Below, piece by piece: positions 2,974 to 51,417 of a stretch of 64,000 bases of DNA. Origin of the DNA: Castellaniella caeni NBRC 101664 (GTDB lineage: Bacteria > Pseudomonadota > Gammaproteobacteria > Burkholderiales > Burkholderiaceae_B); assembly GCF_001592225.1 (NCBI RefSeq), contig NZ_BCWN01000008.1, positions 1 through 64,000 on the forward strand. Reading direction: 5' to 3'. A model generated the notes under the pieces. It was not told where the DNA came from and did not search any database. It saw only the letters and a program-made list of their open reading frames with translations. The first letter of the stretch is position 1. Every line of letters starts with the position of its first letter. Made by a program: the position numbers and the translations under genes.

Positions 2974-3050
2974 AATCGGGCTATCATTTCGGGATGTCTC
3001 ATACCGGCCCGCCGATTCTTCCGCAGGGGGCCGTCACCCATCATTCAGTC

Positions 3051-9101: not shown

Positions 9102-9127
9102 CGCCGACGCCCGACAGGAGACACACC

Positions 9128-10306: not shown

Positions 10307-10310
10307 CGCC

Positions 10311-12167: not shown

Positions 12168-12182
12168 CACCAGGAGTTCACC

Positions 12183-34354: not shown

Positions 34355-35218
34355 ATGACTCAAACACCCAACGCCGCGGCTTCCGGCACGTTTCTGATCG
34401 GCGGCGACATCCCTGTCCACCGGCTGGCCTATGGGGCCATGCGCATCACCGGCCCAGGCATCTGGGGCGACCCCAAAGACCGGCGGGCGGCGCTGGCCAC
34501 CTTGCGGCGGCTGCCCGAGCTGGGGGTCAACTTCATCGACACCGCCGACAGCTATGGGCCGTTCGTCAGCGAAGACCTGATCCGCGAGGCCTTGCATCCC
34601 TATCCCGGCATGCTGGTCGCCACCAAGGGCGGGCTGCTGCGCCACGGGCCCGATAAATGGGTGCCGCTGGCCGACCCCGGTTACTTGCGCCAGTGTGTGC
34701 TGCTGAGCCTGCGTCGTCTGGGCGTCGAACGCATCGATCTCTGGCAGCTGCACCGGCTGGATCACGGCGACGCGCGCCAGGCGCAGCTGCAGGTGATCGC
34801 CGACATGCGCCAAGAAGGGCTCATCCGCCACGTGGGCCTGAGCGAAGTGCGCCCGGCGGACATCGAAGAGGCGCAACGGTATTTTCCGGTGGCCACGGTG
34901 CAAAACCAATACAACCTGGGCGAGCGCAAGAGCGAGGCGGTGCTGGATTACTGCACGCAGCACGGCATCGGCTTCATCCCCTGGTATCCGCTCAACGCGG
35001 GCAAGCTGGCGCATCCGGGCTCGGTTCTGGACACCATCGCGCAAGCCCACGGCGTGACGCCCAGCGCCATCGCATTGGCCTGGCTGCTGAAGCGCTCACC
35101 CGTGATGCTGCCGATTCCAGGCACCAGCAGTCCCGAGCACCTGGCGCAAAACGTGGCGGCAGCCCAGGTGCGGCTGTCCGATCACGAGTTCGAGACCCTG
35201 GGAAAGCAGGCGGTGTAG
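34355..35218 (+). CDS. Aldo/keto reductase
   Basis: NADPH-dependent aldo/keto reductase of 287 residues. The catalytic tetrad is recognisable: Asp in FIDTADSYG, Tyr in the same motif, Lys in VATKGG and His in LWQLHRLD. The cofactor-binding C-terminus is [18 protein letters not shown] 34355 is preferred; it is preceded by an AAGAGG purine stretch. Physiological substrate unknown. Confidence 0.9.
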
Positions 35219-35863: not shown

Positions 35864-37045
35864 TCAGAACATGTGCATCATGCCCAGCCCTGCCTCACGG
35901 CCATCCAGGCCATCCACATAGCCCAGGTTTTTGCCGTACGAGGCATAGACATAGGCGTACGTGCGCTTGGACAGCGGGTACTGGTAGTTGACGTGATACG
36001 TGTCGATGTTGCCGGCCAGATCGCCCCAGCCGCCGGCCGCCTGCGACGCGTCCAGGTTGGACGAAGAATGGTTCCACCCGGCATACAGCACGCCGCCGCC
36101 CACCGGGGTGCTGACCCCCAGGTGGAAATCGTTGGACTTGAAGTTCTCGTAGTTTTCGATGTTCAGCGCCCGCCCACTGATGGCGCCGACATAGTCATTG
36201 GTGTAATACCCCATGCCCAGCTTGCCGTGCTGGTCATGGCCATAGGCCAGCGCCAACTTCACGATTTCAAAATCGTAGGTCACGCCGATGTTCCAGTTGA
36301 CGACCGCCGACTTGCTGAATGCCGTCGTGTTGAAGTCGCCCATCGTGACCTCGCCCCGGCTGGCGCGGTCGTAGCTCAGGCCGATCGCCAGGGGGCCCTG
36401 CTCGTACTTGAGGCCGGCGGACGTGAAATTGGAACGGTTGGCCTCATTGCCCTGATCGACCCCGGCGCTGCGTTCGATGGAGGTCTTGGGCGTGGCGTAC
36501 ATGACGATGGCCGTCAACCCCGCGAAATTGGGCGAGGTGTACTTGAACGAATTGTCGATCCGGGTGCCGGCGTTCTTGGCGGGGCCGCCAAAGGCCTGAT
36601 CCATCGACCCCATGCCCAGCCCGGTGGTGCCGTCGCCGTTCTCGACGATGCCGACGTCCACGCCCGCGTTGTACTGACGGCCCATCGTGACGCTGCCCCA
36701 GTCATCGCTGGCCAACCCCACGAACGCCTGCCGGCTGAACTGGCGCGTGTCGTCGCTGAACCCCCCGCTGCCGATACTGAACCCCTGTTCGAGTGTGAAC
36801 ACCGCCCGCAGGCCGCCTCCCAGGTCTTCGGCCCCTTTCAGACCAAAGCGGTTGGCCGCCAGCGTGCCGCCCACCAGCCCGGACTGAGACACACGGACGT
36901 CGTTGTCATGCCGCTGCAGCCGATGCTCCAGATAGCCATAACCCGAATCGATGATGCCATACAAAGTGACCGACGTTTCGGCCTGCGCGGCACCAGCCAC
37001 CAGCACACCCACCATCCATGCGCTCAGGCATAGTGTTTTTTTCAT
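35864..37045 (-). CDS. Gram-negative porin (Omp32/OmpC type)
   Basis: Outer-membrane trimeric beta-barrel porin of 393 residues. The signal peptide ends AGAAQAE and the first strand SVTLYGIIDSGYGY is the beta-proteobacterial signature. The mature part shows FGLKGAEDLGGGLRAVFTLEQGF, RQAFVGLASDDWGSVTMGRQY and a terminal aromatic residue (GLGMMHMF) used by the Bam machinery. ATG 37045 has a strong GGAGGAG ribosome-binding site. Its upstream region carries a 45-bp block also found before the acyl-CoA dehydrogenase gene, so this porin is probably induced with that pathway. Confidence 0.93.
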   Translation of the reverse strand: MKKTLCLSAWMVGVLVAGAAQAETSVTLYGIIDSGYGYLEHRLQRHDNDVRVSQSGLVGGTLAANRFGLKGAEDLGGGLRAVFTLEQGFSIGSGGFSDDTRQFSRQAFVGLASDDWGSVTMGRQYNAGVDVGIVENGDGTTGLGMGSMDQAFGGPAKNAGTRIDNSFKYTSPNFAGLTAIVMYATPKTSIERSAGVDQGNEANRSNFTSAGLKYEQGPLAIGLSYDRASRGEVTMGDFNTTAFSKSAVVNWNIGVTYDFEIVKLALAYGHDQHGKLGMGYYTNDYVGAISGRALNIENYENFKSNDFHLGVSTPVGGGVLYAGWNHSSSNLDASQAAGGWGDLAGNIDTYHVNYQYPLSKRTYAYVYASYGKNLGYVDGLDGREAGLGMMHMF

Positions 37046-37161: not shown

Positions 37162-37227
37162 CATGCTAAGGCGGGAGCCTGTTTCTGAATTGACTGATTC
37201 CGACATATAGATACGTATTTCCGACAG
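37162..37227 (-). promoter_or_regulatory. Conserved regulatory block upstream of the porin gene
   Basis: The 45-bp block 37162-37206 (CATGCTAAG...AATTGACTG...TTCCGACAT on the plus strand) is identical at 39 of 45 positions to 48893-48937. The TTCCGACA element recurs 21 bp further upstream (37219-37226), that is two helical turns. Read toward the porin it is GTCGGAA...GTCAATT...TTAGCAT, and TTAGCAT is a plausible -10 region. It ends 116 bp before the porin start. Confidence 0.65.
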
Positions 37228-37310
37228 TCATAGCGGAAAATACCCAGTGATTACCCCAACTCAACCGACAATTGGCGCTAAATTACAAATAAATGTCGTA
37301 TTTAGTCAAA

Positions 37311-38918
37311 TCAACAAGGTGCTGAGCCTTGTGTCAGCGTCAGAACGCTGAGGCGCAAGTCCAGGGTCTGGCGACTGGCGGAAAACCGCGTGGCCAGCCA
37401 CGGCCCCGACTCGTCATCGAACGGCAGGGCATACAAGGGAAAGCAGCTGGACGCAATATGCAAACGCAGGCAGTGGCCCGCAAGCTGCCGGTAGCCGATC
37501 TCGCCCAGGCAGACGTGGATCGGCCCGGACGCGGACAGCGTCCGGCGTGGCGCCTGCAGCAGAATGCGGCTGACCCCGTCGGGGCCGACGTCGCACAGGG
37601 TTACCACCACCTGGCACGCCCGCGCTGTGGAACGCAGCGCCAGCCTGACGCCCACGGGCCCCACCCAATCCACGGCGCACGCCAGTGGATCGGAGGTGAA
37701 ACTGAGCACGTCCTCGCGCACCGTCAGGCTTTGCGCATCGCCGGGGTTCAAGAGGGGGCGCCACCAGTCGGTCTGCACGACTGGCACGGGGTGCCCGGGG
37801 TCGTGCGTCCAGTCCAGGCGCGTGAATGCACCCGCCGGACGCTCGCGCAGGGTATGTGCGCGGCCCACCGGCGCCGCAACCAGATACCAGCGCCGCGGGA
37901 TGCAGGTGGCGGGCGGCCAGGTGGGCGCCCAACGCGGCCCTTGGCCCGTCAGCTCCCACGAAACTGGCGGCAAATGGGTGGACAGGCCTTCCAGATGCGC
38001 CCGCAGGAAATCGATCACGGGATCGAGCGTACGATCCAGCCAGCGGGCCTGCGCCTGGGGGTCGGCCAGATGATCGGCCTGCGGCCCGGCAAACGCGAAG
38101 AGGTCATCCATGTGGTCGCTTGCCGTGGCATACAGCACCTGCTGGTGTCCGACGCCAGCCGCCGTGCGCCACTGGCGCAGCTGTGCCACCGCGAACAGGT
38201 CGAACCAGCCCACCCAATGCAGGGTCGGGACGGCCCCCAGCACGCCGCGCAACGCGGCGGCCAGCGCCGTCCACGGCGGCCCGCCCTGGCGCAGCAGAAA
38301 GCTCTGCGCCCGGCTGCCGTGTATCAACTGCCGCCACGGCCGGGCGCCCCAGTCGATCGTCGCGTCCGCCGCATCCGGCGCGCCCCAGGTCGTACGCGCC
38401 CATTCGACCATGGGGCCCAGCCGCAGCACGCCCCCCTGGCAGGCGAAATCCCAAGGGACGCAACTGCTGACCCGGCTGACGAGCGCACGAACCGCCCAAT
38501 GGCGGCTTGCCACGGCGGCCCAGGCCGTGAAGCCGTAATACGAGTTACCCCAGCAGGCTACCTTGCCATTGGCCCAGGGCTGCACAACCAGCCAGTCCAG
38601 CGTGTCATAGGCATCTTCGACTTCGTGCACGAATGGCGCAGCCTGGCCTTGCGACTGCCCCAGGCCGCGCACGTCCTGCACGACCACCGCAAACCCGGCG
38701 GCACACAGGCGCACGGCGACCTTCGGCACGGGCGACGCCGCCGCCTGGCGGCCATAGGGGGTACGGATCAAGACCGCCGCCACACGCCTGCGGGCGCGTG
38801 GCCGGTAGACGTCGGTCATGAGCACAATGCCGTCACGCATCCGCACCCCGAGCGACACGTCCGGCGCAGGCGCAACGGGCAGCCCCGTCGGCACTCGGCT
38901 CACCTCTGCCTCACTCAT
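37311..38918 (-). CDS. CocE/NonD-family alpha/beta hydrolase (X-Pro dipeptidyl-peptidase S15 type)
   Basis: Serine hydrolase of 535 residues. The N-terminal S15 alpha/beta domain (VRMRDGIVLMTDVYRP) carries the nucleophile in WGNSYYGFTAW (Ser about 125) and a His in ASDHMDDLF. The C-terminal jelly-roll PepX_C domain binds substrate. Family members hydrolyse esters, amides or acyl-peptides. ATG 38918 overlaps the end of the EamA gene by 8 bp, indicating coupling. It is the last gene of a run that starts with the peptide-type ABC transporter, so it may act on an imported ester or amide. Confidence 0.86.
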   Translation of the reverse strand: MSEAEVSRVPTGLPVAPAPDVSLGVRMRDGIVLMTDVYRPRARRRVAAVLIRTPYGRQAAASPVPKVAVRLCAAGFAVVVQDVRGLGQSQGQAAPFVHEVEDAYDTLDWLVVQPWANGKVACWGNSYYGFTAWAAVASRHWAVRALVSRVSSCVPWDFACQGGVLRLGPMVEWARTTWGAPDAADATIDWGARPWRQLIHGSRAQSFLLRQGGPPWTALAAALRGVLGAVPTLHWVGWFDLFAVAQLRQWRTAAGVGHQQVLYATASDHMDDLFAFAGPQADHLADPQAQARWLDRTLDPVIDFLRAHLEGLSTHLPPVSWELTGQGPRWAPTWPPATCIPRRWYLVAAPVGRAHTLRERPAGAFTRLDWTHDPGHPVPVVQTDWWRPLLNPGDAQSLTVREDVLSFTSDPLACAVDWVGPVGVRLALRSTARACQVVVTLCDVGPDGVSRILLQAPRRTLSASGPIHVCLGEIGYRQLAGHCLRLHIASSCFPLYALPFDDESGPWLATRFSASRQTLDLRLSVLTLTQGSAPC

Positions 38919-39822
38919 GGGCGCCCCACCGCACCAGGACGATGCCCGCCAACACCAACAGGCCGCCAAACTGCTGCAGGGGGCCGGGCGTCTCAGCCAA
39001 CAGCAGCCAGGCCCAGAGCGCGGCAAACAGCACCTCGGACAGGCTGACGAATGAGGCAATGGTCGGGCCCAGCCGCTGCGCGGCGGCAACCCCGGTGAGG
39101 TAGGCCAGCGCGGCGGCAATGGCACCCAGTTCGGCCACCGCGCCCCACCAGGGAATGGCAGTACCCAGCAAGGTGACGTCGGCGCGCTCCCAGCGCACCT
39201 CGACCAGGCCGGTCGCGCCCGCCAGCGCCAGCGCCACGACACCGACGACCAGCCCGCTGGCGGCAAACGCCACGGGCGGCAGGCGGCGATCCACCTTGCC
39301 TGCGGCAATGACGAAATACGCCGCGACGCACAAGGCGGCAACGCAGCCCCACCCCACGCCGACCGGGTTGATCACGACGCCGCCGCCGATGATGCCCAGC
39401 ACCAGGATCAGGCCAACCATGGCCACCCCCGCACCGCCGACCGTCAGGCGACCGGGCTTCTGTCCATACCGCAGCCAGGCCCAGCCCACCACCAGCACGA
39501 CGCCGCAATATTCCAGCAGCAGGGCCACGGCCACCGACAGCTGCTGCACCGCCAGGTAATACGCCAGCTGACAGCCGACCACGGCCACGACGCCGAACAG
39601 CAGGATTTCCAGGGCGTGGCGGCGCAGCAGATACCAGCGGCCCCGCAACTCGCGCACGGCAAAGGGCAACAAGACGAGGGCGCCCACCGTGATGCGCCAG
39701 ATGGCCGCAGCGGCGGGCGACCACCCGGCATTGAACAGGCCCTTGGCAAAGACCCCCGAGGTAGCAAACGATGCCGCCGACAGCACAGCCAGCCCCAGCC
39801 CGGCCCAATGGGCAACCTTCAC
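38911..39822 (-). CDS. EamA/DMT-family transporter
   Basis: Inner-membrane drug/metabolite-type transporter of 303 residues with ten predicted helices in two EamA repeats (AVLSAASFATSGVFAKGLFNAGW; LGAIAAALAYLTGVAAAQRLGPTIAS). Such proteins usually export amino acids or small metabolites. It lies 77 bp after the fused ABC ATPase gene and overlaps the CocE gene, in one direction. Confidence 0.88.
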   Translation of the reverse strand: MKVAHWAGLGLAVLSAASFATSGVFAKGLFNAGWSPAAAAIWRITVGALVLLPFAVRELRGRWYLLRRHALEILLFGVVAVVGCQLAYYLAVQQLSVAVALLLEYCGVVLVVGWAWLRYGQKPGRLTVGGAGVAMVGLILVLGIIGGGVVINPVGVGWGCVAALCVAAYFVIAAGKVDRRLPPVAFAASGLVVGVVALALAGATGLVEVRWERADVTLLGTAIPWWGAVAELGAIAAALAYLTGVAAAQRLGPTIASFVSLSEVLFAALWAWLLLAETPGPLQQFGGLLVLAGIVLVRWGAHE

Positions 39823-39899
39823 GCAACGCCCTCCGCTTTTCCTCCGCCCCGGCCACGATCCACGACGCCGACCCTCCGCCCGGCCCGGGCGGAGAATTT

Positions 39900-41675
39900 C
39901 TAGGCTTCGAGCGCCTCGACCAGGTTGGGCGTGTTTTCGACCAGCGATTTGGTGTACGGGTGCGCTTTTTCGGAAAACGCCGCCTCGACCGTACTGAGTT
40001 CGACGATCCGCCCCCGCTGCAACACCGCGACGCGCTGCGCCACATTGCGCACCAGCGCGATATTGTGCGTGATGAACAGCAGGCTCAGCCCGCTTTCGCT
40101 TTGCAGGCGGCGCAAGAGTTCGACCAGGGCCGATTGCACGGACACGTCCAGAGCGGACGTGATTTCATCGCACACCAGAATTTCGGGATTCGTCATCAAG
40201 GCGCGGGCCACGGCCACCCGCTGGCGCTCGCCGCCGCTGAGCTGATCCGGATAGCGGCCCGCCATGTCGCCGCGCAAGGCGGCGCGCTCCAGGTTTTCCG
40301 CCACCAGCGCCTCGGTGTCGGCCACGTCGATGCGCAGCGCCTGCAAGGGCTGCAGCAGCAGCTCGCGCACGGTGCGCCGCGGGTTCAGCGATTCGTAGGG
40401 ATCTTGAAAAATATATTGAATCCGGCTGCGCTGCTGGGCGCTGCGATCGAAGCTGCTGTGCGCCAGGGGCGCGCCCCGGTACAGCAGCTCGCCGTCAAAT
40501 TGATGGTGCAGGCCCGCCACAATGCGCGACAGCGTCGTCTTGCCGCTGCCGGACTCCCCCAACAAGGCCAGGCATTCACCAGCGCGCAGCTGCAAATTGA
40601 CGTCCTGCAAAATGACCTTCTTGCCATAGCGCCCCTGGATGCGGCGCAAGTCCAGCAACACGTCGTTGCCCTGGCTGACGACCGGCGCCGCGCCAGCGGC
40701 GCGCGGCGGCAGGGCCACCAGGGGATGCAGACAGCGGACGAAGCCGCGCTCGCCCGTCGGCACCAGTGGCGGCGCCTCTCGGTGGCAGGCCTCGGTGGCA
40801 ATGGGGCAGCGTGGTGCGAACGCGCAGCCCGCCGGGCGCGACAGGGGCGAAGGGGCGTGCCCCTCGATGCCCAGCATCGGGCGGCGCGCGCGCAGGTCGG
40901 GCACGGCCTGCAGCAGCATGCGGGTATAGGGATGGCGCGGCCGGGTGAGTACGTCGCGCAAGGGGCCGAACTCCACGACCTGGCCGGAATACATGACGGC
41001 AATCGCATCGGCCAGGTCGGCCACCGTCGCCATGTCGTGGCTGATGTACACCCCGGCGCACTGATACGACCGGCAAAGCTCGCGCACCGTCTGCAAGACG
41101 GTGGCCTGCGTCGTCACGTCCAGCCCGGTGGTGGGCTCGTCCATCACGATGAGGCGCGGCCTGGGGATGAAGGCCATGGCGATGGCGATGCGCTGCTGCT
41201 GCCCGCCCGAGAGCTGGTGCGGATAGCGCTGGCGAAAGGCGTCGTCGTCGGGCAGTGCCACCTCGCGCATCACGTCGCGAATCCGCTGCGCCCCGGCGGC
41301 GGGCGAGACGTCGTGCGGCAGACACTCCAGCAGCTGCGTCTGCAGCGACAAGGCCGGGTTGAGCGACGCCGCGGGCGATTGCGGAATGTAGCTGACGACG
41401 TGGCCGCGCAACTGCTGCAGGCCGCGCTTGCGCGCCGCCACGATGTCCTGCCCCGCCACCAGGATGGAGCCGCCCGAGATGTACGTGCCCGACTTGCAAT
41501 AATTCAGCAGCGACAGGGCCAGCGTCGTCTTGCCCGAGCCGGATTCCCCGACCACGCCCAGGATTTCGCCCGGGCGCACTTGAAGGCTGACGTCGCGCAC
41601 GATATCGGCCTCGGAGGGCCGACCCGTGATGCGCAGGTCGCGCACGTCCAGTGTGACATCGCTTGTCATGTTCAT
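39900..41675 (-). CDS. Peptide-type ABC transporter ATP-binding protein, two ATPase domains fused (DppD-DppF)
   Basis: Double ATPase of 591 residues that powers a peptide/opine/nickel-type importer. The first domain has Walker A GESGSGKT (43-50), signature LSGGQQQR and Walker B LIVMDEPT. It ends in the oligopeptide-type C-terminal extension with cysteines (CAFAPRCPIATEACH), an iron-sulfur-like motif. The second domain has Walker A at about 372-379, LSGGERQR and ILVCDEIT. ATG 41675 overlaps the permease stop by 4 nt. DppD and DppF are usually separate genes; the fused form resembles GsiA/YejF. Confidence 0.93.
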   Translation of the reverse strand: MNMTSDVTLDVRDLRITGRPSEADIVRDVSLQVRPGEILGVVGESGSGKTTLALSLLNYCKSGTYISGGSILVAGQDIVAARKRGLQQLRGHVVSYIPQSPAASLNPALSLQTQLLECLPHDVSPAAGAQRIRDVMREVALPDDDAFRQRYPHQLSGGQQQRIAIAMAFIPRPRLIVMDEPTTGLDVTTQATVLQTVRELCRSYQCAGVYISHDMATVADLADAIAVMYSGQVVEFGPLRDVLTRPRHPYTRMLLQAVPDLRARRPMLGIEGHAPSPLSRPAGCAFAPRCPIATEACHREAPPLVPTGERGFVRCLHPLVALPPRAAGAAPVVSQGNDVLLDLRRIQGRYGKKVILQDVNLQLRAGECLALLGESGSGKTTLSRIVAGLHHQFDGELLYRGAPLAHSSFDRSAQQRSRIQYIFQDPYESLNPRRTVRELLLQPLQALRIDVADTEALVAENLERAALRGDMAGRYPDQLSGGERQRVAVARALMTNPEILVCDEITSALDVSVQSALVELLRRLQSESGLSLLFITHNIALVRNVAQRVAVLQRGRIVELSTVEAAFSEKAHPYTKSLVENTPNLVEALEA

Positions 41676-42544
41676 GATTCCACTCCCCGCCCGATCCCGG
41701 CGGATGCCCGGGCAACACCGTCCGTGATGAGATTCGTGCCGACCGTCAGAATGGCGATCGCCAGCACCGGCAGCAAGACCGGCCAGATCTGCGCGGTCAC
41801 GCCCACCCGGTTCTCGTTGATCATCAGGCCCCAGTCGGCCATGGGCGGCTGGATGCCCAGGCCCAGGAAGTTCAGCCCGGCAATGATGCCGATGGAATAG
41901 GTCAGCCGCAGGCCGAACTCGACGGCCAGCGTGCCCGTCGTATTCGGCAGGATTTCCGTCAGCAGGATTTTCCAGCGCGGCATGCCGATGGCTTCGGCAC
42001 TCTTGACGAAGTCGCGCTCGACGACCGTCAGGGCCGCACCGCGGACGATACGCGCCACCCGTGGCAGGTGGGTCAGGCCGACCAGCAAGACCAGCAGCCA
42101 CATCCGCGGGCCCAGGATGCTGAGAAACAGCAAGGCCAGCACGATGGAGGGAAAGGCCAGGACGATGTCGCCCGCGCGCATGATGATTTCATCCGGCCAG
42201 CCCCGCCGGTAGGCGGCATGCACGCCCAGAGCCGCTCCCAGTCCGACGCCGAGAAACGTGGCCAACAGCGACAGGGTCAGCAGCAGGTGGCCGCCATCGA
42301 GAAAGCGGCTGAAAACGTCGCGCCCCAGGTTGTCCGTGCCGAACAAGGTGCCGACGGCCTCGGGGTCGAAGGGAATGCCGACGAACTCCGTGGATGAGTA
42401 CGGCGTGACAAACGGCCCGATGGCCACCACGGCCAGCACCAGCAGCACCATGCACAGGCCGATCTGCGTGCGGCGCTGGCACAGCGCCTGTGAGAGCAGT
42501 CCGCAGCGGCGGACGGCACGACTTTGTTGAGTGAGCGTCGTCAT
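41672..42544 (-). CDS. Peptide-type ABC transporter permease (DppC-like)
   Basis: Membrane subunit of 290 residues. DppC features are a long N-terminal segment with one helix, then the BPD_transp_1 core with the EAA loop (SAEAIGMPRWKILLTEILPNT) that docks on the ATPase. It overlaps DppB by 4 nt and the ATPase gene by 4 nt, in a tightly coupled operon. Confidence 0.92.
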   Translation of the reverse strand: MTTLTQQSRAVRRCGLLSQALCQRRTQIGLCMVLLVLAVVAIGPFVTPYSSTEFVGIPFDPEAVGTLFGTDNLGRDVFSRFLDGGHLLLTLSLLATFLGVGLGAALGVHAAYRRGWPDEIIMRAGDIVLAFPSIVLALLFLSILGPRMWLLVLLVGLTHLPRVARIVRGAALTVVERDFVKSAEAIGMPRWKILLTEILPNTTGTLAVEFGLRLTYSIGIIAGLNFLGLGIQPPMADWGLMINENRVGVTAQIWPVLLPVLAIAILTVGTNLITDGVARASAGIGRGVES

Positions 42545-43488
42545 TTTCCAGCCGTCCTTACTTTCGGGTTTGCGAGCAGGCCGATCACGTCAGCCAGCAA
42601 GTTGACGCCGACCGTGATGGCCGCAATGATCAGAGTCAGGAATTGAATGACCGGCAGATCCCGGTTTGCCACGGCATCCACCAGGGCATTGCCGATGCCG
42701 GGGTAGCGGAACAGAAACTCGACCACGACGGCACCACCCATCATGTAGGCCAGCTGCAGCGCCACCACCTGCACCACCGGCCCCAGCGCATTGGGCAGGC
42801 CGTGGCGCAGCAGCACGGTGCGCTCGCGCACCCCCTTGAGCCGCGCCTGCTGCACGTACTGGCTCTCCAGCACTTCCAGCATGGTGGCGCGCATCGAGCG
42901 CACGATGTACGGCCCCACCGACAGCGCCAGTGTGATGGCCGGCAGCACCAGCTGCGAAGGCTGCGACCAGGCCGGCCCGGTGCCCACATAGACGGCGGGC
43001 AGCCAATTGAGCACGCCCGTTGCGAAGACGATCACCAGGATCATGCCGACGACGAATTCAGGCACGGCGGCAAACACCAGCGTGAAGAAGGCCACTGCGT
43101 GATCGGCCACGCGGTCGCGCTGCAGCGCGCTCCAGGCCCCCAGCAACAGAGCGATCGGGGTGCCGATGATGGCCGCGGCCAGCATCAGCACGACCGAGTT
43201 GCGAAACAGGGGGCCGATGACATCGACGACTGCCCGGCCATTGGCGAGCGAATTGCCGAAGTCGAGCGTGACGACCCCGTGCAGCCAGGACAGGTACTGC
43301 ATCAGGGCCGGCTGATCCAGATGCAGCTGGGTACGCAGCGCGGCCAGGCGCTCTGGCGTTGCCTGGCGGCCCAGGATGGCCTGCGCCGCGTCGCCGGGCA
43401 GGGTCTGCGTCGCCAGGAAGATGATGGCCGAAATGATCAGCAGCACCAGCACGCCGATGAGCAGCCGCCGAATGATGAGCACAGTCAT
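42541..43488 (-). CDS. Peptide-type ABC transporter permease (DppB-like)
   Basis: Membrane subunit of 315 residues starting IIRRLLIGVLVLLIISAIIF, typical of DppB/GsiC proteins. The EAA loop is QQARLKGVRERTVLLRHGLPNALGP. The LPGDAAQAILG periplasmic loop is characteristic of the family. Ten bases separate it from the binding-protein gene. Confidence 0.92.
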   Translation of the reverse strand: MTVLIIRRLLIGVLVLLIISAIIFLATQTLPGDAAQAILGRQATPERLAALRTQLHLDQPALMQYLSWLHGVVTLDFGNSLANGRAVVDVIGPLFRNSVVLMLAAAIIGTPIALLLGAWSALQRDRVADHAVAFFTLVFAAVPEFVVGMILVIVFATGVLNWLPAVYVGTGPAWSQPSQLVLPAITLALSVGPYIVRSMRATMLEVLESQYVQQARLKGVRERTVLLRHGLPNALGPVVQVVALQLAYMMGGAVVVEFLFRYPGIGNALVDAVANRDLPVIQFLTLIIAAITVGVNLLADVIGLLANPKVRTAGK

Positions 43489-43498
43489 GCGACGCCCC

Positions 43499-45085
43499 TC
43501 ACTGAGCCAGCCACACTTGACGCAGGCGGAAGCTGGTCAGGCCGATGCCGCTCTTGTCGGGCTGCAGGCCGTGCACCTTCTTGTTGTAGGCATCCAGCGC
43601 GTTGGGAAAACCCCAGATGATGAAGCTGCCCCGCTCGTGCTCGATCTTCTGCGCCTGCTGGATCAACTGGCAGCGTTTTTCGGCATCCGCCGTCTGCATG
43701 GCCTCGCCGACGAGGGACACCCATTCGGGGTCGTTCCAGTGCGTTTCGTTGTACGGCGCGTCGGGCAGGGAGCTTTGCTGAATCTGGTTGATGTAGCCGT
43801 GCGTGTAGTAGAAATCCTGGGCGAACGTCCACTTCAGGTATTGGTCGCCATAGAACACGCCCGGATCGACCCGGTTGACGTGCACCGTCACACCCGCCGC
43901 CTTGGCCTGCTGGGCAAACACCTGCGCCGCCTCGACGAAGCCCGCCCCCACCGGCGAGGTCACCAGTTCGACCTCCAGGTTTTCCTTGCCCGCTTCCTTC
44001 AGCAGCTGCTTGGCCTTGGCGATGTCCTGCGTGCGCTGTGGGATATCCTTGGCAAAGCACGCGTCATAGCGCGAAAACAGGTCGTTGCCGATGTCGCCGC
44101 GCCCCGCCAGCACCTGGGCCACCATCTGCTTGCGGTTGACGATCAGCCGGAACGCCTGGCGCACGCGCGGATCCGTGAACGGTTCTTTGTCCACGCGCAT
44201 GGTGAAGGGCACAAAGCCCGCTGTATGGCTCTCCAGCACACGCATCTGCGGGTTGGCCTGCACGATGCGCACCTGCCCCAGCGGCACGGCCTCGATGGCA
44301 TCGACCTGGTTGCTCAGCAAGGCGTTGACACGCGCCGTATCGTCCTGGAAGTCCACGATGGTGACGCTGTCGAGATAGGGCTGGCCCGCGCGCCAGTAGT
44401 GGGGGTTGCGCACGAAGGTACTTTGCTGCCCCGGCACGAAGCTCTTGAGCATATAGGGGCCGGAGCTGACAGGTTTGGCCGGATCGTAGTCGGCGGGCAC
44501 GATGCCGAAGAAATAGTTGGACACCATCTCTTCAAAATCGACGACAGGCTTGGAAAAATGGAATTCCAGCGTGTGGTCATCCACCTTGACGAAGGCGTCG
44601 CGCTGCAGATAGCGCAGCGGCACCGTCCCCGTGGTGGGGTGCTGCGGGTCGCTCATGCGCAGGAAGCTGGCGATCACGTCATCCAGGGTGATGGGCCGCC
44701 CGTCGCTGAACTGGATCCCCTCGCGCAGCGTGACCGTCCAGACCGTGGCATCCGCATTGGCGGTAACCGAGCTTGCCAAGGACGGCTGCACATGCTGATC
44801 CGGATCCATCTCCAGCAGCCGGTCGAACAATTGCAGCACCCGCGCCTCGTCGGGGTGCGTGATGGGGCGATGCGCATCGAGCGTATCCTTTTCCGACCCG
44901 CCGGCCACGCCCACGGTCAGCGAGCCGCCGCGCACGGGCTGCGCGGCGGCCGCCTCTGGTGCCGCGGCCTGTGCGCCCACCGGCGCCACGGCCAGCAGCG
45001 TCGCGGCCAACAAGCCCGGCAACGCGCCACGCAGGCTGCGCCCCGGGAAAAAAGAAAGTGCCTGCTTCAATTTCAATATGGACAT
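43499..45085 (-). CDS. Peptide-type ABC transporter substrate-binding protein (SBP family 5)
   Basis: Periplasmic binding protein of 528 residues. The signal peptide ends about VGAQA, then follows an SBP_bac_5 domain with DAHRPITHPDEARVLQLFDRLLEMD, VWTVTLREGIQFSDGRPITLDDVIASFLR and SSGPYMLKSF. Family 5 proteins bind peptides, nickel, glutathione, opines or, in some cases, quaternary amines. It is the first gene of the ABC operon, preceded by CAGGAGACAAGC before ATG 45085. In context it may import the substrate of the CoA-dependent pathway next door; this is inference. Confidence 0.92.
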   Translation of the reverse strand: MSILKLKQALSFFPGRSLRGALPGLLAATLLAVAPVGAQAAAPEAAAAQPVRGGSLTVGVAGGSEKDTLDAHRPITHPDEARVLQLFDRLLEMDPDQHVQPSLASSVTANADATVWTVTLREGIQFSDGRPITLDDVIASFLRMSDPQHPTTGTVPLRYLQRDAFVKVDDHTLEFHFSKPVVDFEEMVSNYFFGIVPADYDPAKPVSSGPYMLKSFVPGQQSTFVRNPHYWRAGQPYLDSVTIVDFQDDTARVNALLSNQVDAIEAVPLGQVRIVQANPQMRVLESHTAGFVPFTMRVDKEPFTDPRVRQAFRLIVNRKQMVAQVLAGRGDIGNDLFSRYDACFAKDIPQRTQDIAKAKQLLKEAGKENLEVELVTSPVGAGFVEAAQVFAQQAKAAGVTVHVNRVDPGVFYGDQYLKWTFAQDFYYTHGYINQIQQSSLPDAPYNETHWNDPEWVSLVGEAMQTADAEKRCQLIQQAQKIEHERGSFIIWGFPNALDAYNKKVHGLQPDKSGIGLTSFRLRQVWLAQ

Positions 45086-45217
45086 GCTTGTCTCCTGGTG
45101 ACCGGCTGCCCGCCTGGTGGCTGCTTTGCCGTTGCGTCACTTATTGATTGTTCTGCTGCTTTGGGCCCGCTTGACGCCTGCACGCGCCAGGCGGGTGGGG
45201 AACGACAATACGACGGT

Positions 45218-45352
45218 TCAGGGCGCGGCCACGATGCGCGGCCCGGCCCGGCGCCCTTGCGCCATCGGTGAGGCCGCCCGCGTCATGCGTAGGGCCGCGG
45301 TTCTCAAGGCGGCGGGGTCGATGCCCTGGGCGTTGCGCGAGGAGCTGCTCAT
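45218..45352 (-). CDS. Possible 44-residue leader peptide or small protein
   Basis: An ATG at 45352 with a TTTGGAGAC ribosome-binding site about 9 nt upstream opens a 44-residue frame (MSSSSRNAQGIDPAALRTAA...GPRIVAAP). It lies between the end of the acyl-CoA synthetase gene and the binding-protein gene. No domain is recognised, there is no signal peptide, and it is Ala/Arg-rich. It could be a leader peptide, a small protein or chance. The remaining stretch 45086-45217 holds nothing recognised. Confidence 0.3.
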   Translation of the reverse strand: MSSSSRNAQGIDPAALRTAALRMTRAASPMAQGRRAGPRIVAAP

Positions 45353-45366
45353 GATGGATGTCTCCA

Positions 45367-45383
45367 AAGAAGTCTGACTTCTT
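45367..45383. promoter_or_regulatory. Perfect palindrome, candidate operator for the ABC operon
   Basis: AAGAAGTC-T-GACTTCTT is a perfect 8-bp dyad with a one-base centre. The centre is too tight for a hairpin loop, so a protein-binding site is more likely. It lies 15 bp before the small ORF, in an otherwise AT-rich stretch (45367-45420) of a 400-bp spacer. Confidence 0.45.
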
Positions 45384-45484
45384 GTTTTTGATTTCTTGTT
45401 CTTGTGGTTTTGCGAGGATGATGACTGCGCGCGCTGCGCCAGGGCAAGTGCGCGCAGGTACTGATTGGATGTCGGTCAAGTCTC

Positions 45485-47575
45485 CTATTGCAGGCGCAGC
45501 AAGGCATCTACCGCCACGACGCCCTTGCCGCGCGGGCGCACGATGAGCGGGTTGATGTCCAGCTCGGCGACGTCGTCCCAGTGGGCCAGGGCAAAATCGG
45601 CCACCGCCATGACGGCATCGACCACGGCATCCAGGTCGCCCACCGGGCGATTGCGAAACCCCTTGAACAGCAGGATGCCCTTGAGCGAATCCAGCGCCTG
45701 GCGCACCATGGCCGGGGTCGTCGGCAACAGGACGGTGGCGCTGTCGTTGAGCAGATTGACCAGGATGCCGCCGGTGCCGATCACCAGCGCCGGGCCGCAC
45801 AGGGGGTCGCGCTTGATGCCGATGATGAGCTCGCCCACCCCGTCCTGAATCATCGGTTCGATGAGGAAGCGATCGGCCCGGATGCCCGCCTGTTGCAGCT
45901 TGCCGACCATGTCGGCGGCGGCACCCTGCACGCTGGCGACGTCGCCCAGGTTCAGGGCCACGGCGCCCAGCTCGGTCTTGTGGGCCAGATTGTCGCCCAC
46001 GGCCTTGAGCACGACCGGAAACCCCACCTGCGCCGCCACCTCGCCCACCTGGGCCGTCTCGGCCACGCGGCTGCCGGGGTTGGGCAGGCCAAAGCGCCCC
46101 AGCAACTGCTTGGAATCCCATTCGTTGAGCATGCGGATGTCGCCATCCAGCACCCGCGCGGCGCGCAGCTGCAGAAGATCGGGCGTCTGCATGGCGAGCA
46201 CTTCACGGCGGCGCCGCGCATGGCGCACGAACCCGGCCAGCGCGGAGACGCCATCGCTCATGCCCTGCAGCGGCGCGATGCCCGCCCGCGCGAGGCGCGC
46301 CCGGGCGTCCTCGGGCAGCAGCTCGCTGAAGTTGCTGATGACGGCCACGGTCTTGTGCTGACCGGCGCGGGCGGCGATCAAGGCATCCACCGCCACCTGC
46401 CACTCGCGGTCGTCGCCCGTCGGCCCACGCGGAAAATCGAGCACCATGAGCACGATGTCGAAGTCGGCGCGCATCATGGTGGCAAATACGGCCTCGCTGG
46501 CCTGCGCCTGCCCCCAGACCGAGGTGTTGTAGTCCAACGGATTGGAGCGCGTGGCAAAGGGCGGCAGCCAGGCGTCCAGCGCCGCCACGTGGTCAGCGCT
46601 CAGCGCGGGCAGATCGAGCGCATGCTGGGCCAGGCAATCGGCCAGCATGGCGCTGTCGCCGCCCGAGCAGGTGAGCACGCCCACCCGCGAGCCGGCGGGC
46701 TGCTCGCACAGGGCCGCCAGCTTCAGGGCTTCGACCATTTCGCTCAGGGAATGCACGCGGATGATGCCCAGGCGGTCGAACAGCGCCTGGTACATGTCGT
46801 CCTGCCCCGCCAGCGAGCTGGTGTGGCTCAGGGTGAGCTGCGTGCCGACTTCGGACACGCCGGCCTTGAGCACCACCAGGGCGATACCCTTACGCAGGGC
46901 CGCCAGCGCGGCCCGGCTGAAGGCCTCGACGTCGCGCAGGCCCTCGATGTAGAAACCGATGGCACGCACACGCCCGTCTTCGACCAGCGGCTCGATGTAG
47001 TCGCCTACTTCGAGCACGGCCTGGTTACCCACGCTGATGACGTGTGTGATGGGCAGCGAACGGTCGTGCATGGTGAGGTTGAGGGACACGTTGCCGCTCT
47101 GGCTGATGATGGCCACCCCCTGATCGACCCGCCCGCCCGCCAGCCGGTCGGGCCACAGGGCCGCGCCGTCGGCGAAGTTGAGCACGCCGTAGCAGTTGGG
47201 CCCAACCAGCGCCATGTCGCCAGCGGCCCGCACCAGCTCGTCTTGCAGCGCCTTGCCCTGCACGCCGGTCTCGGCGAAACCGGCGGCATAGCACACCGCC
47301 CCGCCGCAGCCCTGTTCGCGCAGGGCCCGCACCACGGGCACGGCGGCCGCCGCGTTGACGGCCACGAACGCGGCATCCGGCACACCCGGCAGGGCGTCGA
47401 TCGAGGGATAGCACTTGATTCCGGCGATCTCGTCGTACTTGGGGTTGACCACCCAGACCTCGCCGGCAAAGCCGATGTCGCGGGTGTTGCGGATCGGCAG
47501 CTCCAGGTTGGAACCGCCCACCATCACGATGCTGCGGGGTGCCAGCAAGCGGCGCAGGTTTTCTGCCTTGTTCAT
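45485..47575 (-). CDS. NDP-forming acyl-CoA synthetase (acetate-CoA ligase family)
   Basis: Single-chain acyl-CoA synthetase of 696 residues that activates a carboxylic acid with CoA and a nucleoside triphosphate through a phosphohistidine. Order: CoA-binding Rossmann domain (RSIVMVGGSNLEL, NPKYDEIAG, VGPNCYGVLNF), succinyl-CoA-ligase-like domain (IISQSGNVSLNL) with phospho-His about His251 in LSHTSSLAG, and a C-terminal ATP-grasp domain (FPVVLKAVGDNLAHKTELGAV). It lies 16 bp after the acyl-CoA dehydrogenase gene, so it likely feeds that enzyme. Here it would take the place of CaiC or CaiB. Confidence 0.9.
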   Translation of the reverse strand: MNKAENLRRLLAPRSIVMVGGSNLELPIRNTRDIGFAGEVWVVNPKYDEIAGIKCYPSIDALPGVPDAAFVAVNAAAAVPVVRALREQGCGGAVCYAAGFAETGVQGKALQDELVRAAGDMALVGPNCYGVLNFADGAALWPDRLAGGRVDQGVAIISQSGNVSLNLTMHDRSLPITHVISVGNQAVLEVGDYIEPLVEDGRVRAIGFYIEGLRDVEAFSRAALAALRKGIALVVLKAGVSEVGTQLTLSHTSSLAGQDDMYQALFDRLGIIRVHSLSEMVEALKLAALCEQPAGSRVGVLTCSGGDSAMLADCLAQHALDLPALSADHVAALDAWLPPFATRSNPLDYNTSVWGQAQASEAVFATMMRADFDIVLMVLDFPRGPTGDDREWQVAVDALIAARAGQHKTVAVISNFSELLPEDARARLARAGIAPLQGMSDGVSALAGFVRHARRRREVLAMQTPDLLQLRAARVLDGDIRMLNEWDSKQLLGRFGLPNPGSRVAETAQVGEVAAQVGFPVVLKAVGDNLAHKTELGAVALNLGDVASVQGAAADMVGKLQQAGIRADRFLIEPMIQDGVGELIIGIKRDPLCGPALVIGTGGILVNLLNDSATVLLPTTPAMVRQALDSLKGILLFKGFRNRPVGDLDAVVDAVMAVADFALAHWDDVAELDINPLIVRPRGKGVVAVDALLRLQ

Positions 47576-47591
47576 GGGGCCCTCATCACCG

Positions 47592-48830
47592 TCAGTTTGC
47601 AACGCCTGCCAGCGCGGTGGCCACGGGCCCCGCGGCCTGCACCTGGGCCGCGGACGCACCGCCCTGCCAGCCGGTATAGACGTCCAGCCCGCGCTTCTTG
47701 ATCTGCCCGCTGATCACCACGCGCTGGATTTCGGAGGTGCCTTCCCAGATGCGATCCACGCGGGTGTCGCGCCACAGGCGTTCGACGGGCTGCTCGCGCA
47801 TGTAGCCGCGCCCGCCCAGAATCTGCACGGCGCGGTCGCACACGCGGCCCACCATCTCGGAACAATGCAGCTTGAGCGCCGAGGCGTGCGCGTGGTTGCG
47901 CTTGCGATCCGTGCTCTGGTCGATTTCCCAGCTCAGGCGGTACAGCAGCGACTTGGCGGCCATGATTTCCACCGCCATGTCGGCCAGCATGAACTCGATG
48001 GCCTGAAAATCACGGATGGGCTGGCCGAACTGGATGCGTTCGGCGGCGTACTTGTTGGCTTCTTCGGTGGCGCGGATGGCCCCGCCCACGCAGCGGGCGG
48101 CGATGCCCAGGCGCGCCTCGACGAACCAGTCCTTGGTCATCTGGTAGCCTTCGCCGATCTTGCCCAGCATCTTGTCCTCGCCCACCACGACGTCCTTGAA
48201 GGTGAACTCGGGGTGCTTGAAGGCGAAGTGGTGCGTATACAGGGGCGTACGCTTGACCTCGACGCCTGGCAGGTTCTTGTCCACGAAGAACACCGCCGAC
48301 TTGTCGGGGTCGCCATCCACATGGGCGTGCACCAGGATGTAGTCGGCCACGTCGCCCACGGTGACGAACCATTTCTCGCCATTGATGCGCCAGCCGCCCG
48401 CCACCTTGTCGGCGCGCGTCGCGCACTGCGCCGGGTCGGAACCCGCATTGGCCTCGGTGATGGCATAGGCGTCGCGGCGCTTGCCCTGGCACGTGGGGAT
48501 CAGGTACTGCGCCTTTTGCTCGGGCGTGGCAAAGCGCATGGGATAGGAGGGATACCAGAGCGCATCCCAGATGGCGCCCGTGGCCCGGCCCAGCTGTTCA
48601 TTGAGCAGGGTCTGCTCGAAGATGGTGAAGCCCTGGCCGCCGTCTTCCTTGCTGTGGTTGGGCGCGTTAAAGCCCCAATCGAGCACGGCCTGGGTGATCT
48701 TCTTGTGCGTGGCGGGGCTGATGCCGTCGTTTTCCTCGCATTCCATTTCGTGCGGAAACAGCACCTGCTCGGTAAACGCCTGGGCTTTGGCCTGCAATTC
48801 CTGGTGGGCCTTCGAGAGGGTGAAATCCAT
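47592..48830 (-). CDS. Acyl-CoA dehydrogenase
   Basis: FAD-dependent acyl-CoA dehydrogenase of 412 residues. Signatures: YAITEANAGSDPAQC (FAD/substrate), WFVTVGDVADY, VQILGGRGYMREQPVERLWRD and the catalytic Glu in IWEGTSEIQRVV, at the medium-chain-type position. It is not close to E. coli CaiA in sequence. It is first in an operon with the acyl-CoA synthetase and divergent from caiD, with a shared regulatory region. Plausible role: oxidation of gamma-butyrobetainyl-CoA or a similar short acyl-CoA to the enoyl-CoA. The exact substrate is unproven. Confidence 0.9.
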   Translation of the reverse strand: MDFTLSKAHQELQAKAQAFTEQVLFPHEMECEENDGISPATHKKITQAVLDWGFNAPNHSKEDGGQGFTIFEQTLLNEQLGRATGAIWDALWYPSYPMRFATPEQKAQYLIPTCQGKRRDAYAITEANAGSDPAQCATRADKVAGGWRINGEKWFVTVGDVADYILVHAHVDGDPDKSAVFFVDKNLPGVEVKRTPLYTHHFAFKHPEFTFKDVVVGEDKMLGKIGEGYQMTKDWFVEARLGIAARCVGGAIRATEEANKYAAERIQFGQPIRDFQAIEFMLADMAVEIMAAKSLLYRLSWEIDQSTDRKRNHAHASALKLHCSEMVGRVCDRAVQILGGRGYMREQPVERLWRDTRVDRIWEGTSEIQRVVISGQIKKRGLDVYTGWQGGASAAQVQAAGPVATALAGVAN

Positions 48831-48892
48831 GATCGAACTCCTTCGATGATAGGGAGAGGGGGGTGTCGCGCCATGGGCCGACGGGTTGCAAC

Positions 48893-48957
48893 CATGCTAA
48901 GTCGGAAGCGTGTTTTTCAATTGACTGTTTCCGACATCAGCAGACTGATTCTCGACA
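48893..48957 (-). promoter_or_regulatory. Conserved regulatory block upstream of the acyl-CoA dehydrogenase operon
   Basis: The block 48893-48937 matches the porin upstream block at 39 of 45 positions without gaps, in the same orientation relative to the gene. A related half-site (TCTCGACA, 48950-48957) lies 21 bp beyond TTCCGACA (48929-48936), the same spacing as at the porin. It ends 62 bp before the start codon at 48830. Confidence 0.68.
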
Positions 48958-49025
48958 AACCAGCAAAATCAGGCTTAGTAATAACCCTTATCTTTCAAGC
49001 ACATGGCGCTTGGATATAAATGCAC

Positions 49026-49041
49026 GTCGGAATTGGTCAAT
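49026..49041 (+). promoter_or_regulatory. Core of the shared regulatory motif upstream of caiD
   Basis: GTCGGAATTGGTCAAT, in the opposite orientation, matches the core GTCGGAA-(T/A)CA-GTCAAT found before the porin and the acyl-CoA dehydrogenase. It lies 78 bp before the caiD ATG. The divergent gap 48831-49119 thus holds one copy facing each way. Confidence 0.5.
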
Positions 49042-49119
49042 AAAAACCATCGCCCGCCTGCTACCGTACGCAGCATGAGCGCCACGCCGCTTTCCGCCCA
49101 CGTTCCAGAAGGGTCTCCC

Positions 49120-49905
49120 ATGAATGATGAAGTCCATATCCGCCACGACGAGGGCATCTGCTGGATCACCCTCGATCGCCCCAAGGCCAACGCCATCAAC
49201 TGCGCCGCCAGCCGCGCGCTGTATGAGGCGCTGCGGGCCTACGAGGCCGACCCCGCCCTGCGCGTCGCCATCCTCACGGGCGCCGGAGAGCGCTTTTTCA
49301 GCGCCGGCTGGGATCTGAAAGCGGCGGCCCAGGGCGAGGCGGTGGACGCCGATCACGGCCCCGGCGGCTTTGGCGGTATCACCGAATACTTCAGCCGCAC
49401 CAAGCCCGTGATCGCCGCAGTCAATGGCCTGGCGGTCGGCGGCGGCTTCGAGGTGGCGCTCGCCTGCGACCTGATCGTCTGCGCCGAACACGCACAGTTT
49501 TTCCTGCCCGAGACGACCATTGGCATCGTGCCGGACTCCGGCGGCGTTTTTCGCCTAAGCCGCCGTCTGCCCCGCGCCCTGGCGCTGGACATGATCCTGA
49601 CGGGGCGGCGCATGGCCGCCGACGAGGCCTTGCGCTGGGGGCTGGTCAACCAGGTCGTGGCCGGGCCCGAGCTGCCCGCCGCCGCGCGTGCGCTGGCGCA
49701 AGGCCTGCTGCGCAGCGCCCCGCTGGCGCAGCGCGCCGCCTTGCAGCTGCTGTCGGCCACCGAGGCGATGAACCTGTCCGAGGCCTTTCACCACCAACGC
49801 CACGGCACGCTGCCCGTCTACCGCCAGATGCTGCGTTCGCAAGACGCGCAAGAAGGCATCGCCGCCTTCTCTGAAGGCCGCGAGCCGGTCTGGGCGGGGA
49901 TTTGA
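49120..49905 (+). CDS. caiD: Carnitinyl-CoA dehydratase (CaiD-like crotonase)
   Basis: Crotonase-fold enzyme predicted to interconvert L-carnitinyl-CoA and crotonobetainyl-CoA. It has 261 residues, the same length as E. coli CaiD. It shares with that protein long matching stretches such as ITLDRPKANAI, FFSAGWDLKAAA-GEA, DLIVCA and GIVPDSGG. Both active-site Glu positions are kept (VGGGFEVAL, LPETTIGIVPD). ATG 49120 gives the CaiD N-terminus. The gene heads a caiD-SDR-caiE operon divergent from the acyl-CoA dehydrogenase. A relative acting on another hydroxyacyl-CoA cannot be excluded. Confidence 0.85.
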   Translation: MNDEVHIRHDEGICWITLDRPKANAINCAASRALYEALRAYEADPALRVAILTGAGERFFSAGWDLKAAAQGEAVDADHGPGGFGGITEYFSRTKPVIAAVNGLAVGGGFEVALACDLIVCAEHAQFFLPETTIGIVPDSGGVFRLSRRLPRALALDMILTGRRMAADEALRWGLVNQVVAGPELPAAARALAQGLLRSAPLAQRAALQLLSATEAMNLSEAFHHQRHGTLPVYRQMLRSQDAQEGIAAFSEGREPVWAGI

Positions 49906-50000
49906 GCCACGCGCCCCCGGCGCGTCCAGGCTTTGCCCTTCGGCGCACGGGGCAAGCGAATCCCCTCACCCGCAGAACCCGCCCTAAAAGGATTCTCATC

Positions 50001-50783
50001 ATGCAAAAGATTTTCGATTCCCGGCTCTTCGACGGCCAGACCGCCCTGGTGACGGGCGGGGGCAGCGGCATCGGCCTGGCCATCGCCCGGCAGCTGGGCG
50101 CGCTGGGCGCCCGCGTGATCATCGCGGCACGCGACGCCGAGCGCCTCGAAGAAGCCGCGCGCCAGCTGCGCGACGACGGGCTGGACGTGCGCGCCGATGC
50201 CGTCAACATCCGCGACATGGACTCGGTCAGCGCCCTGTTCGAGCGCCTGGAGCAGGCCGGGGACGCCATCGACGTGCTGGTGAACAACGCGGGCGGGCAG
50301 TTCGCCGCCCCGGCGCTGGACATCAGCCCCAACGGCTTTCGATCCGTCGTCGATCTCAACCTGCAGGGCACGTTTCAGATGAGCCAGCGCTATGCCCGGC
50401 ACTGCCGCGACCACCAGCACGGCGGCAGCATCCTGAACATCGTGCTCTGCCAGGAGCAGGGCATCCCCGGCATGGCCCACGCGGCGGCCGCCCGCGCCGG
50501 CGTGGTGAACCTGACCAAGACCCTGGCCTGGGAATGGGCGCCCCTGGGCATCCGCGTCAACGCCGTGGCACCCGGCACCATCCGCACTTCGGGGCTGGAC
50601 AAATACGACCCAGCCCAGCTCGCGCAAGGCGTCGAAAAGCTGCCCATCGCCCGCATGGGCACCCCCGAAGAGGTGGCCTGCAGCGTGGCCTATCTGTGCT
50701 CGCCCGCCGCGAGCTTCATCACCGGCATCTGCCTGGCGCAGGACGGCGGCGAGCACCTGACGGGCGCCTCGCCGCAGTGCTGA
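50001..50783 (+). CDS. SDR-family enoyl-CoA-reductase-like protein lacking the canonical Tyr/Lys
   Basis: Rossmann-fold SDR of 260 residues with cofactor motif TGGGSGIG (residues about 17-24) and NNAGG. The usual YxxxK catalytic pair is replaced: the segment reads [17 protein letters not shown]. This resembles peroxisomal trans-2-enoyl-CoA reductase (PECR) and dienoyl-CoA reductases, as do [16 protein letters not shown] and SPAASFITG. An NADPH-dependent reduction of crotonobetainyl-CoA or another enoyl-CoA is therefore suggested. ATG 50001 follows an AAAAGGA site. It lies between caiD and caiE. Enoyl-reductase function is inference from motif similarity. Confidence 0.8.
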
Positions 50784-50814: not shown

Positions 50815-51417
50815 ATGCCCTGCTACCGTTTTGAAGGCCTGACCCCCGTCATCCACCCGACGGCCTACGTGCACCCGACCGCCGTGCTGATTGGCGACGT
50901 CATCGTCGGCCCCGGAGTCTACGTGGCCCCACTGGCCAGCCTGCGCGGCGACTATGGCCGCCTGATTCTGGAAGAAGGCGCCAATCTGCAGGATCACTGC
51001 ATGATGCACGGCTACTGCGAAATGGACACCATCGTGCACGCCCACGGCCACATCGGCCACGGCGCGATCCTGCACGGCTGCGTCGTCGGGCGCAATGCGC
51101 TGGTGGGCATGAACAGCGTCATCATGGATGGCGCCGTGATCGGCGAAGACAGCATCGTGGCGGCCATGAGCTTCGTGCGCGCCGGTTTTCAGGGCGAACC
51201 GCGCCAGCTGCTGATGGGCTCGCCAGCGCGCGTGAAGCGCGCAGTGACGGACGAAGAACTGCACTGGAAAGGCCTGAACACCCAGGAATACCAGGCCCTG
51301 GCGCGCCGCTGCCAGACAAGCCTGCAGCCCTGCGAACCGCTGACCGAGCCCGAGGCAGGCCGGCCCCGGCTGCAGGGGGTCACCCAGGTGCAGCCCAGCG
51401 CCGCCCAGACGCGATAG
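50815..51417 (+). CDS. caiE: CaiE-like gamma-carbonic-anhydrase-family protein
   Basis: Left-handed beta-helix hexapeptide protein of 200 residues, close to E. coli CaiE (196 residues): the opening [22 protein letters not shown], then [30 protein letters not shown] and [13 protein letters not shown]. His residues in the hexapeptide turns could hold zinc as in gamma carbonic anhydrases. CaiE is reported to support CaiD and CoA-transferase activity, perhaps through cofactor supply. A thioesterase relative (PaaY) is the main alternative, but the CaiD neighbour favours CaiE. It converges on the regulator gene with a 3-bp gap. Confidence 0.85.

Follow-up and report, generated by a model that had tools for sequence, protein, structure and literature searches.

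The first 64,000 nucleotides of contig NZ_BCWN01000008.1 of Castellaniella caeni NBRC 101664 (hereafter the window) contain a divergent gene cluster with carnitine-type genes and, 12 kb away, a porin gene whose promoter shares a 45-bp block with that of the cluster. On the minus strand, the cluster encodes an acyl-CoA dehydrogenase (47592–48830), with orthologs 85% identical in Photobacterium sp. JCM 19050 (locus L013) and 90% identical in G003, another genome of the genus, and an ADP-forming-type acyl-CoA synthetase (45485–47575) that has CoA-binding, succinyl-CoA-ligase-like, and ATP-grasp parts. On the plus strand lie the genes of a CaiD-like enoyl-CoA hydratase (49120–49905), whose best model is the crotonobetainyl-CoA hydratase, an SDR-family dehydrogenase (49992–50783, the range as scanned, whose first codon is not a start codon), and a CaiE protein (50815–51417), which scores 368.5 bits against an equivalog cut-off of 305. 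An AraC-family regulator, our proposed activator, is encoded on the minus strand at 51421–52410, with the CaiE and AMP nucleosidase genes as neighbors. The outer-membrane porin (Porin_4; 35864–37045, minus strand) is one of three matching porins in the genome and is 66% identical to the porin at C14:67026.

The blocks at 37162–37206 and 48893–48937 agree at 39 of 45 positions, as an earlier note on this DNA had claimed, and form the top-scoring direct 45-mer pair of the window (direct pairs only, at offsets of at least 50). Read in gene sense, on the minus strand, both contain tandem half-sites with a 21-bp period, TGTCG-N16-TGTCG-N7-TCAAT, the porin block as TGTCGGAAATACGTATCTATA-TGTCGGAATCAGTCAATT...TTAGCAT and the dehydrogenase block as TGTCGAGAATCAGTCTGCTGA-TGTCGGAAACAGTCAATT...TTAGCAT. 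The porin promoter/operator extends over 37163–37226 (minus strand; distal half-site TGTCGGAA, proximal half-site TGTCGGAATCAGTCAAT) and the dehydrogenase promoter/operator over 48894–48957 (minus strand), with the same layout; at both, the proximal half-site begins 37 bp ahead of a TAGCAT −10 element. The second element that the note had placed 21 bp upstream is present at each, and exact TGTCG-N16-TGTCG occurs at these two places only in the window. On the caiD side (49004–49067, plus strand), the arrangement is TGGCG-N16-CGTCG-N7-TCAAT...TACCGT, with TACCGT as the −10 element at an unchanged distance, and the core GTCGGAA-N3-GTCAAT, said to face caiD, is found at 49026–49041.

A fourth operator, which goes beyond the earlier note, lies divergently upstream of the porin promoter (37273–37316, plus strand; TGGCG-N16-TGTCG-N7-GTCAAA) and adjoins the 3′ end of a CocE-like gene. 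It matches the caiD operator at 28 of 44 positions; no −10 element was found at the expected place (columns 59/60 scanned), and no recognized gene faces it. For the 44-bp core shared by the porin and dehydrogenase sites, 38 matches are observed; shuffling one side yields 11.4 on average, and none of 20,000 shuffles reached 38. We built a profile, R1, from eight sites, three of them from the window (porin, dehydrogenase, and caiD). Columns 2, 4, 5, 23, 25, 26, 34, 36, and 37 are invariant over the eight, and the distance from the first base of the proximal TGTCG to that of the −10 element is 37 bp at five sites and 38 bp at three. The suggested layout of an operator followed by a −10 element is supported. 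A sigma-70 consensus scan of 44900–49200 found no promoter, which fits activator-dependent promoters, though it is no proof of them.

The motif is nearly restricted to these promoters in the 3.28-Mb genome (60 contigs) and is not scattered at random. At E ≤ 5, R1 matches only four sites: 37164–37226 (E = 1.2e-7), 48895–48957 (E = 2.2e-6), and 49004–49065 (E = 1.1e-5), all used in training, and the non-training fourth operator, 37273–37316 (E = 0.0028). A composite pattern with 18 fixed positions gives eight genome matches at up to three mismatches and none for the reversed control: two are perfect (porin and dehydrogenase), one has two mismatches (caiD), and five, on other contigs, have three and were taken as chance level. 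Because this pattern was built from the sites themselves, only the absence of further matches is informative. TGTCGGAANNAGTCAATT is found exactly only at the porin and dehydrogenase blocks, with 12 matches at up to three mismatches versus 6 for the reversed control. That the motif is simply a core promoter, some other common element, or a chance match is therefore very improbable: it does contain a −10-like hexamer and an AT-rich core, but it yields just four sites in 3.28 Mb, the composite has no other match below three mismatches, and the motif is conserved in other lineages.

We defined a full layout as a TGTCG pair with up to two mismatches plus TnAA plus TANNNT at column 59 or 60; in 373,295 bases (the window and 19 further stretches), it occurs at the eight defining sites and nowhere else. 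The exact core GTCGGAA-N3-GTCAAT has four genomic occurrences, at the porin, dehydrogenase, and caiD sites and on contig C22. Neither the C22 stretch nor those around the exact cores of genomes G002, G009, G026, and G058 (L066–L070) hold a full-layout site; L067 and L068 have one two-mismatch pair each, with a −10 element and without TnAA. G012 also contains the exact core. Two three-mismatch matches on contig C7 (37819, minus strand; 38107, plus strand) resembled another divergent pair. One lies within a pyridine-nucleotide-disulphide oxidoreductase gene, the second is 0.16 kb ahead of a gene for a heavy-metal E1-E2 ATPase, and the pair was dropped because of these contexts and because the stretch (L064) has no full-layout site. 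Exact TGTCG pairs in L015, L016, and L021 were not counted, having neither a −10 element at column 59/60 nor TnAA; L016 also has four pairs with one or two mismatches that have a −10 element and no TnAA. The TGTCG spacing spectrum of L014–L021, several of which are close relatives, has a small peak at 21 bp (four pairs), followed by three pairs at spacing 6.

The divergent arrangement is conserved outside this species. In G003, the gene order is kept, with identities to the window of 66% for the CoA synthetase, 90% for the dehydrogenase, 65% for CaiD, 75% for the SDR, 78% for CaiE, and 64% for the regulator, and the divergent intergenic region has one tandem site per side (L061 8584, minus strand; 8623, plus strand). 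In Photobacterium, the regulator (63%), SDR (67%), CaiD (62%), and dehydrogenase (85%) are present, the CoA synthetase matches in three aligned pieces (52–67%), no CaiE match was found within the 16 kb of L013, and the gap between dehydrogenase and CaiD again carries a tandem site per side (7738, plus strand; 7702, minus strand). In a Cellvibrionales metagenome-assembled genome (L014), a tandem site (11013, plus strand) has a 49% identical relative of the regulator on one side and, on the other, the beginning of an acyl-CoA dehydrogenase gene (PF02771, 57.7 bits), where the contig ends. Conservation before orthologs thus holds for the dehydrogenase and caiD genes in G003 and Photobacterium and fails for the porin in the nine other genomes of the genus, in which R1 recovers two G003 training sites and five weaker matches (E 0.087–0.48).

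The dehydrogenase itself is rare. At E ≤ 1e-150, it was found in 2 of 268 genomes of the family (this one and G003), 1 of 369 of the class, and 1 of 398 of the phylum (this one only), the class and phylum sets being samples and up to 4–6 candidates being scored per listed genome. A 55% identical relative on a Paracoccaceae plasmid also adjoins a CoA synthetase gene; the annotated regulators there differ. The window dehydrogenase has 412 residues versus 388 in G003; a stop inside the G003 match means that the window protein has a C-terminal extension. In Photobacterium L013, class III CoA-transferase-like, CoA synthetase, and BCCT genes (1218–3768, 8986–11074, and 11308–12983) are split over several reading frames, perhaps through draft assembly errors.

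The 51421–52410 protein combines an N-terminal DJ-1/PfpI-type domain (PF01965, 28.9 bits; cut-off 26.6) with a C-terminal AraC-type helix-turn-helix (PF12833, 90.6 bits; cut-off 33.6), the architecture of the GATase-1-like AraC group, and is GbdR/CdhR-like. In the window, G003, and Photobacterium alike, no more than 3 kb separate the regulator gene from the operators; the G003 and Photobacterium proteins are 63–64% identical to that of the window and are encoded within 3 kb of the dehydrogenase gene. Tandem half-sites with a (T/G)GTCG core and a 21-bp period, as found at the promoters that would be its targets, are known from related systems. CdhR of Pseudomonas aeruginosa, a regulator of the same group that acts in carnitine catabolism, binds at caiX-cdhR to tandem direct GGTCGC half-sites with a 15-bp spacer, hence a 21-bp period, and these are described as very similar to GbdR, SouR, and ArgR sites (PMC5806209). 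The ARG box of P. aeruginosa and P. alloputida ArgR has tandem copies of TGTCGCN6GNAA separated by 5 bp, again a 21-bp period, with AA at positions 15–16 and one repeat less conserved (PMC10963909); the invariant A36-A37 fall on these two positions of the proximal half-site. The wider AraC group is not uniform in its box, the SphR consensus being TGNCCSNNRNNSNCC with 6–8 bp between (PMC3900636). Because motif sequence and spacing match the published CdhR and ArgR boxes, the GbdR-like protein is the likely activator of these operators, in line with the proposal that a GlxA/CdhR-like protein is the regulator.

The operators might instead be recognized by a different member of this regulator family and not by 51421–52410, for example by the 46% identical paralog at C25:24632. 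We regard this as unlikely. Related regulators, CdhR and GbdR among them, do recognize very similar and even overlapping sites (PMC5806209); however, the operators and the 51421–52410 regulator co-occur in the three lineages seen to have the pathway, and 20 kb around the paralog (L065) have no full-layout site, only one two-mismatch pair with a −10 element and without TnAA, and no R1 match at E ≤ 2. Judged by eye, the genes beside this second GbdR-like gene (C25:24632–25594) resemble those of serine hydroxymethyltransferase and of sarcosine-oxidase-type enzymes, and its product is perhaps the glycine-betaine-type regulator.

The similarity between the porin and the dehydrogenase/caiD control regions continues well past the shared block. 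They align without gaps at offset 11731 with 94 of 154 identities, a value equaled in none of 20,000 shuffles, and by successive parts the alignment scores 38/44, 11/20, 17/46, and 28/44. With the motif columns set aside, 28 of 43 positions are still identical between the porin and dehydrogenase sites, versus at most 19 of 43 for every other pair, and the distal half-sites are 47 bp apart in both window pairs versus 39 in G003 and 36 in Photobacterium. Because this single 154-bp diagonal includes both divergent operators, the most economical view is that the divergent control region was duplicated, and the porin probably has a copy of the dehydrogenase/caiD version and not an independent site. 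Of the two, the dehydrogenase/caiD copy is expected to be ancestral, since other lineages have it too. A short stretch 40–74 bp ahead of the porin start codon is weakly similar to the leader of the paralog at C14:67026 (local score 27), which would place the junction of a captured control region between 37119 and 37162.

The unbroken diagonal and the identical 47-bp spacing, which differs from the spacing in both relatives, would also fit blocks that are alike only through duplication of a DNA segment, with a porin copy that has no regulatory role. We give this explanation a low probability, since matching positions cluster on the operators and promoter (38/44 and 28/44) and are sparser between them (17/46), a pattern that selection for the sites would produce. 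In addition, the half-sites and −10 element of the porin copy are intact, and it has the best R1 score in the genome, as a training site.

The transporter genes of the locus differ between lineages as well, the porin and an importer of another type occupying a place where relatives have a BCCT transporter. A BCCT transporter lies beside the operon in both G003 (L061 3430–5055) and Photobacterium (L013 11308–12983), the two being 77% identical over 384 residues. The corresponding part of the window, 37311–45085, contains an SBP5-type ATP-binding cassette (ABC) importer, an EamA-family transporter, and a CocE-like hydrolase, and this genome gave no BCCT match at E ≤ 1e-20 in a search that does find the BCCT of G003. 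The importer (39900–45085, minus strand; binding protein, two permeases, and double ATPase) lies between the CoA synthetase gene and the EamA, CocE, and porin genes, separated from the dehydrogenase–synthetase genes by a 0.4-kb gap, and has no operator of its own in the composite, R1, or full-layout scans. It is conceivable, at somewhat below an even chance, that this lineage copied the whole divergent control region before an extra porin gene while the ABC importer replaced the ancestral BCCT. Such promoter capture would have added the outer-membrane entry step to a CoA-dependent betaine/carnitine regulon, and the orphan operator at 37273–37316 would have been kept as a working second site, for example in looping. 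A TRAP-type binding protein (32270–33295) has an 82% identical counterpart close to this cluster in G003 and may also be part of the neighborhood of the pathway; no operator was found at its gene.

We consider it quite probable that the shared block serves as operator/promoter for an AraC activator of the GATase-1-like group. This activator, most likely the 51421–52410 protein, would drive the dehydrogenase, caiD, and porin arms, the porin control region being probably duplicated. Two activator monomers would bind the tandem half-sites (TGTCG...TnAA), two helical turns apart, and would aid RNA polymerase at weak promoters in the presence of a carnitine/betaine-like compound or its CoA derivative. 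A 17-bp spacer would put the −35 hexamer on columns 36–41, which the proximal half-site reaches, suggesting a class II activator layout. Leftward output would be the acyl-CoA dehydrogenase and CoA synthetase, and rightward output the CaiD-like hydratase, SDR, and CaiE. The leftward porin gene, 12 kb away, would provide outer-membrane entry for the substrate, an extra porin copy having captured the duplicated control region in a lineage with an ABC in place of the BCCT importer. From the CaiE score above cut-off, the best model of the CaiD-like protein (335 bits, below its cut-off of 500), and the score of the G003 BCCT with the CaiT model (448.5; cut-off 541), we infer a carnitine- or betaine-like acid as the substrate; the crotonobetainyl-CoA dehydrogenase (CaiA) equivalog is also below its cut-off (175 versus 540).

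Several points weigh against this interpretation. The central 46 bp between the paired operators are only weakly similar, 2,341 of 20,000 shuffles doing as well, so the case for duplication draws mainly on the operators and on the equal distance between them. The porin arm is confined to one species, with no R1 match at E ≤ 5 near the listed porin matches of the nine other genus genomes. The best NCBIfam model of the regulator, GbdR (NF052371), gives 341 bits, below its cut-off of 480. The regulator query has eight other genome matches, some in the DNA-binding domain only and one 46% identical, any of which could bind a similar box, so that the assignment to 51421–52410 rests on linkage. The training-alignment sites and their −10 elements were initially chosen by eye. 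In favor, the four window sites rank 1, 2, 3, and 6 over 64 kb, with the fourth operator on top, when scored with a 38-column matrix trained on the five foreign sites only; the G+C-rich background of this matrix, however, favors A+T-rich places. An Infernal profile from the same five sites, R2, reports one match in the genome, 37276–37313 (E = 0.17), and in the window alone 37276–37313 (0.0034), 37185–37226 (0.61), and 34390–34415 (2.2), with neither the dehydrogenase nor the caiD site at E ≤ 5.

The proposed system differs from each of its known counterparts. In the CdhR system, the site serves a carnitine dehydrogenase operon from a class I position, upstream of its promoter (PMC5806209). 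In the window, by contrast, the proximal half-site extends into the −35 zone, and the proposed target set combines genes of a CoA-dependent pathway with a porin; the 51421–52410 gene is not divergent from caiX-cdhCAB, and no carnitine dehydrogenase was found among the window proteins scanned. Unlike in the ARG box, proximal position 13 is T in all eight sites and not G, position 6 is G, C, or T, and the target genes are others. The bbu gamma-butyrobetaine cluster of Emergencia timonensis shares an acyl-CoA dehydrogenase and a betaine/carnitine/choline transporter and is inducible; it also has class III CoA transferases, ferredoxin, and a thioesterase and is reported only in Clostridiales (PMC8364193). 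The enterobacterial cai operon is matched by CaiE above cut-off, a CaiD-like hydratase, an acyl-CoA dehydrogenase, and the CaiT-like BCCT of G003, but the CaiD, CaiA, and CaiT models are below their cut-offs, and an ADP-forming-type CoA synthetase, an SDR, and a GATase-1-like AraC regulator lie nearby. The enterobacterial operon uses CaiF.

Judging by titles and the opening lines of abstracts, no described version was recognized in the literature. The type of the box is already known from CdhR and ArgR; what seems to be new is the regulon, which would belong to a familiar kind of regulator and operator and would have recruited a porin in an unusual way. The analysis puts forward a candidate regulator, operator, and set of targets for an uncharacterized, CoA-dependent, carnitine-like pathway that is rare in the sampled genomes, and it offers a clear case of an outer-membrane porin seemingly joining a catabolic regulon through a duplicated control region.

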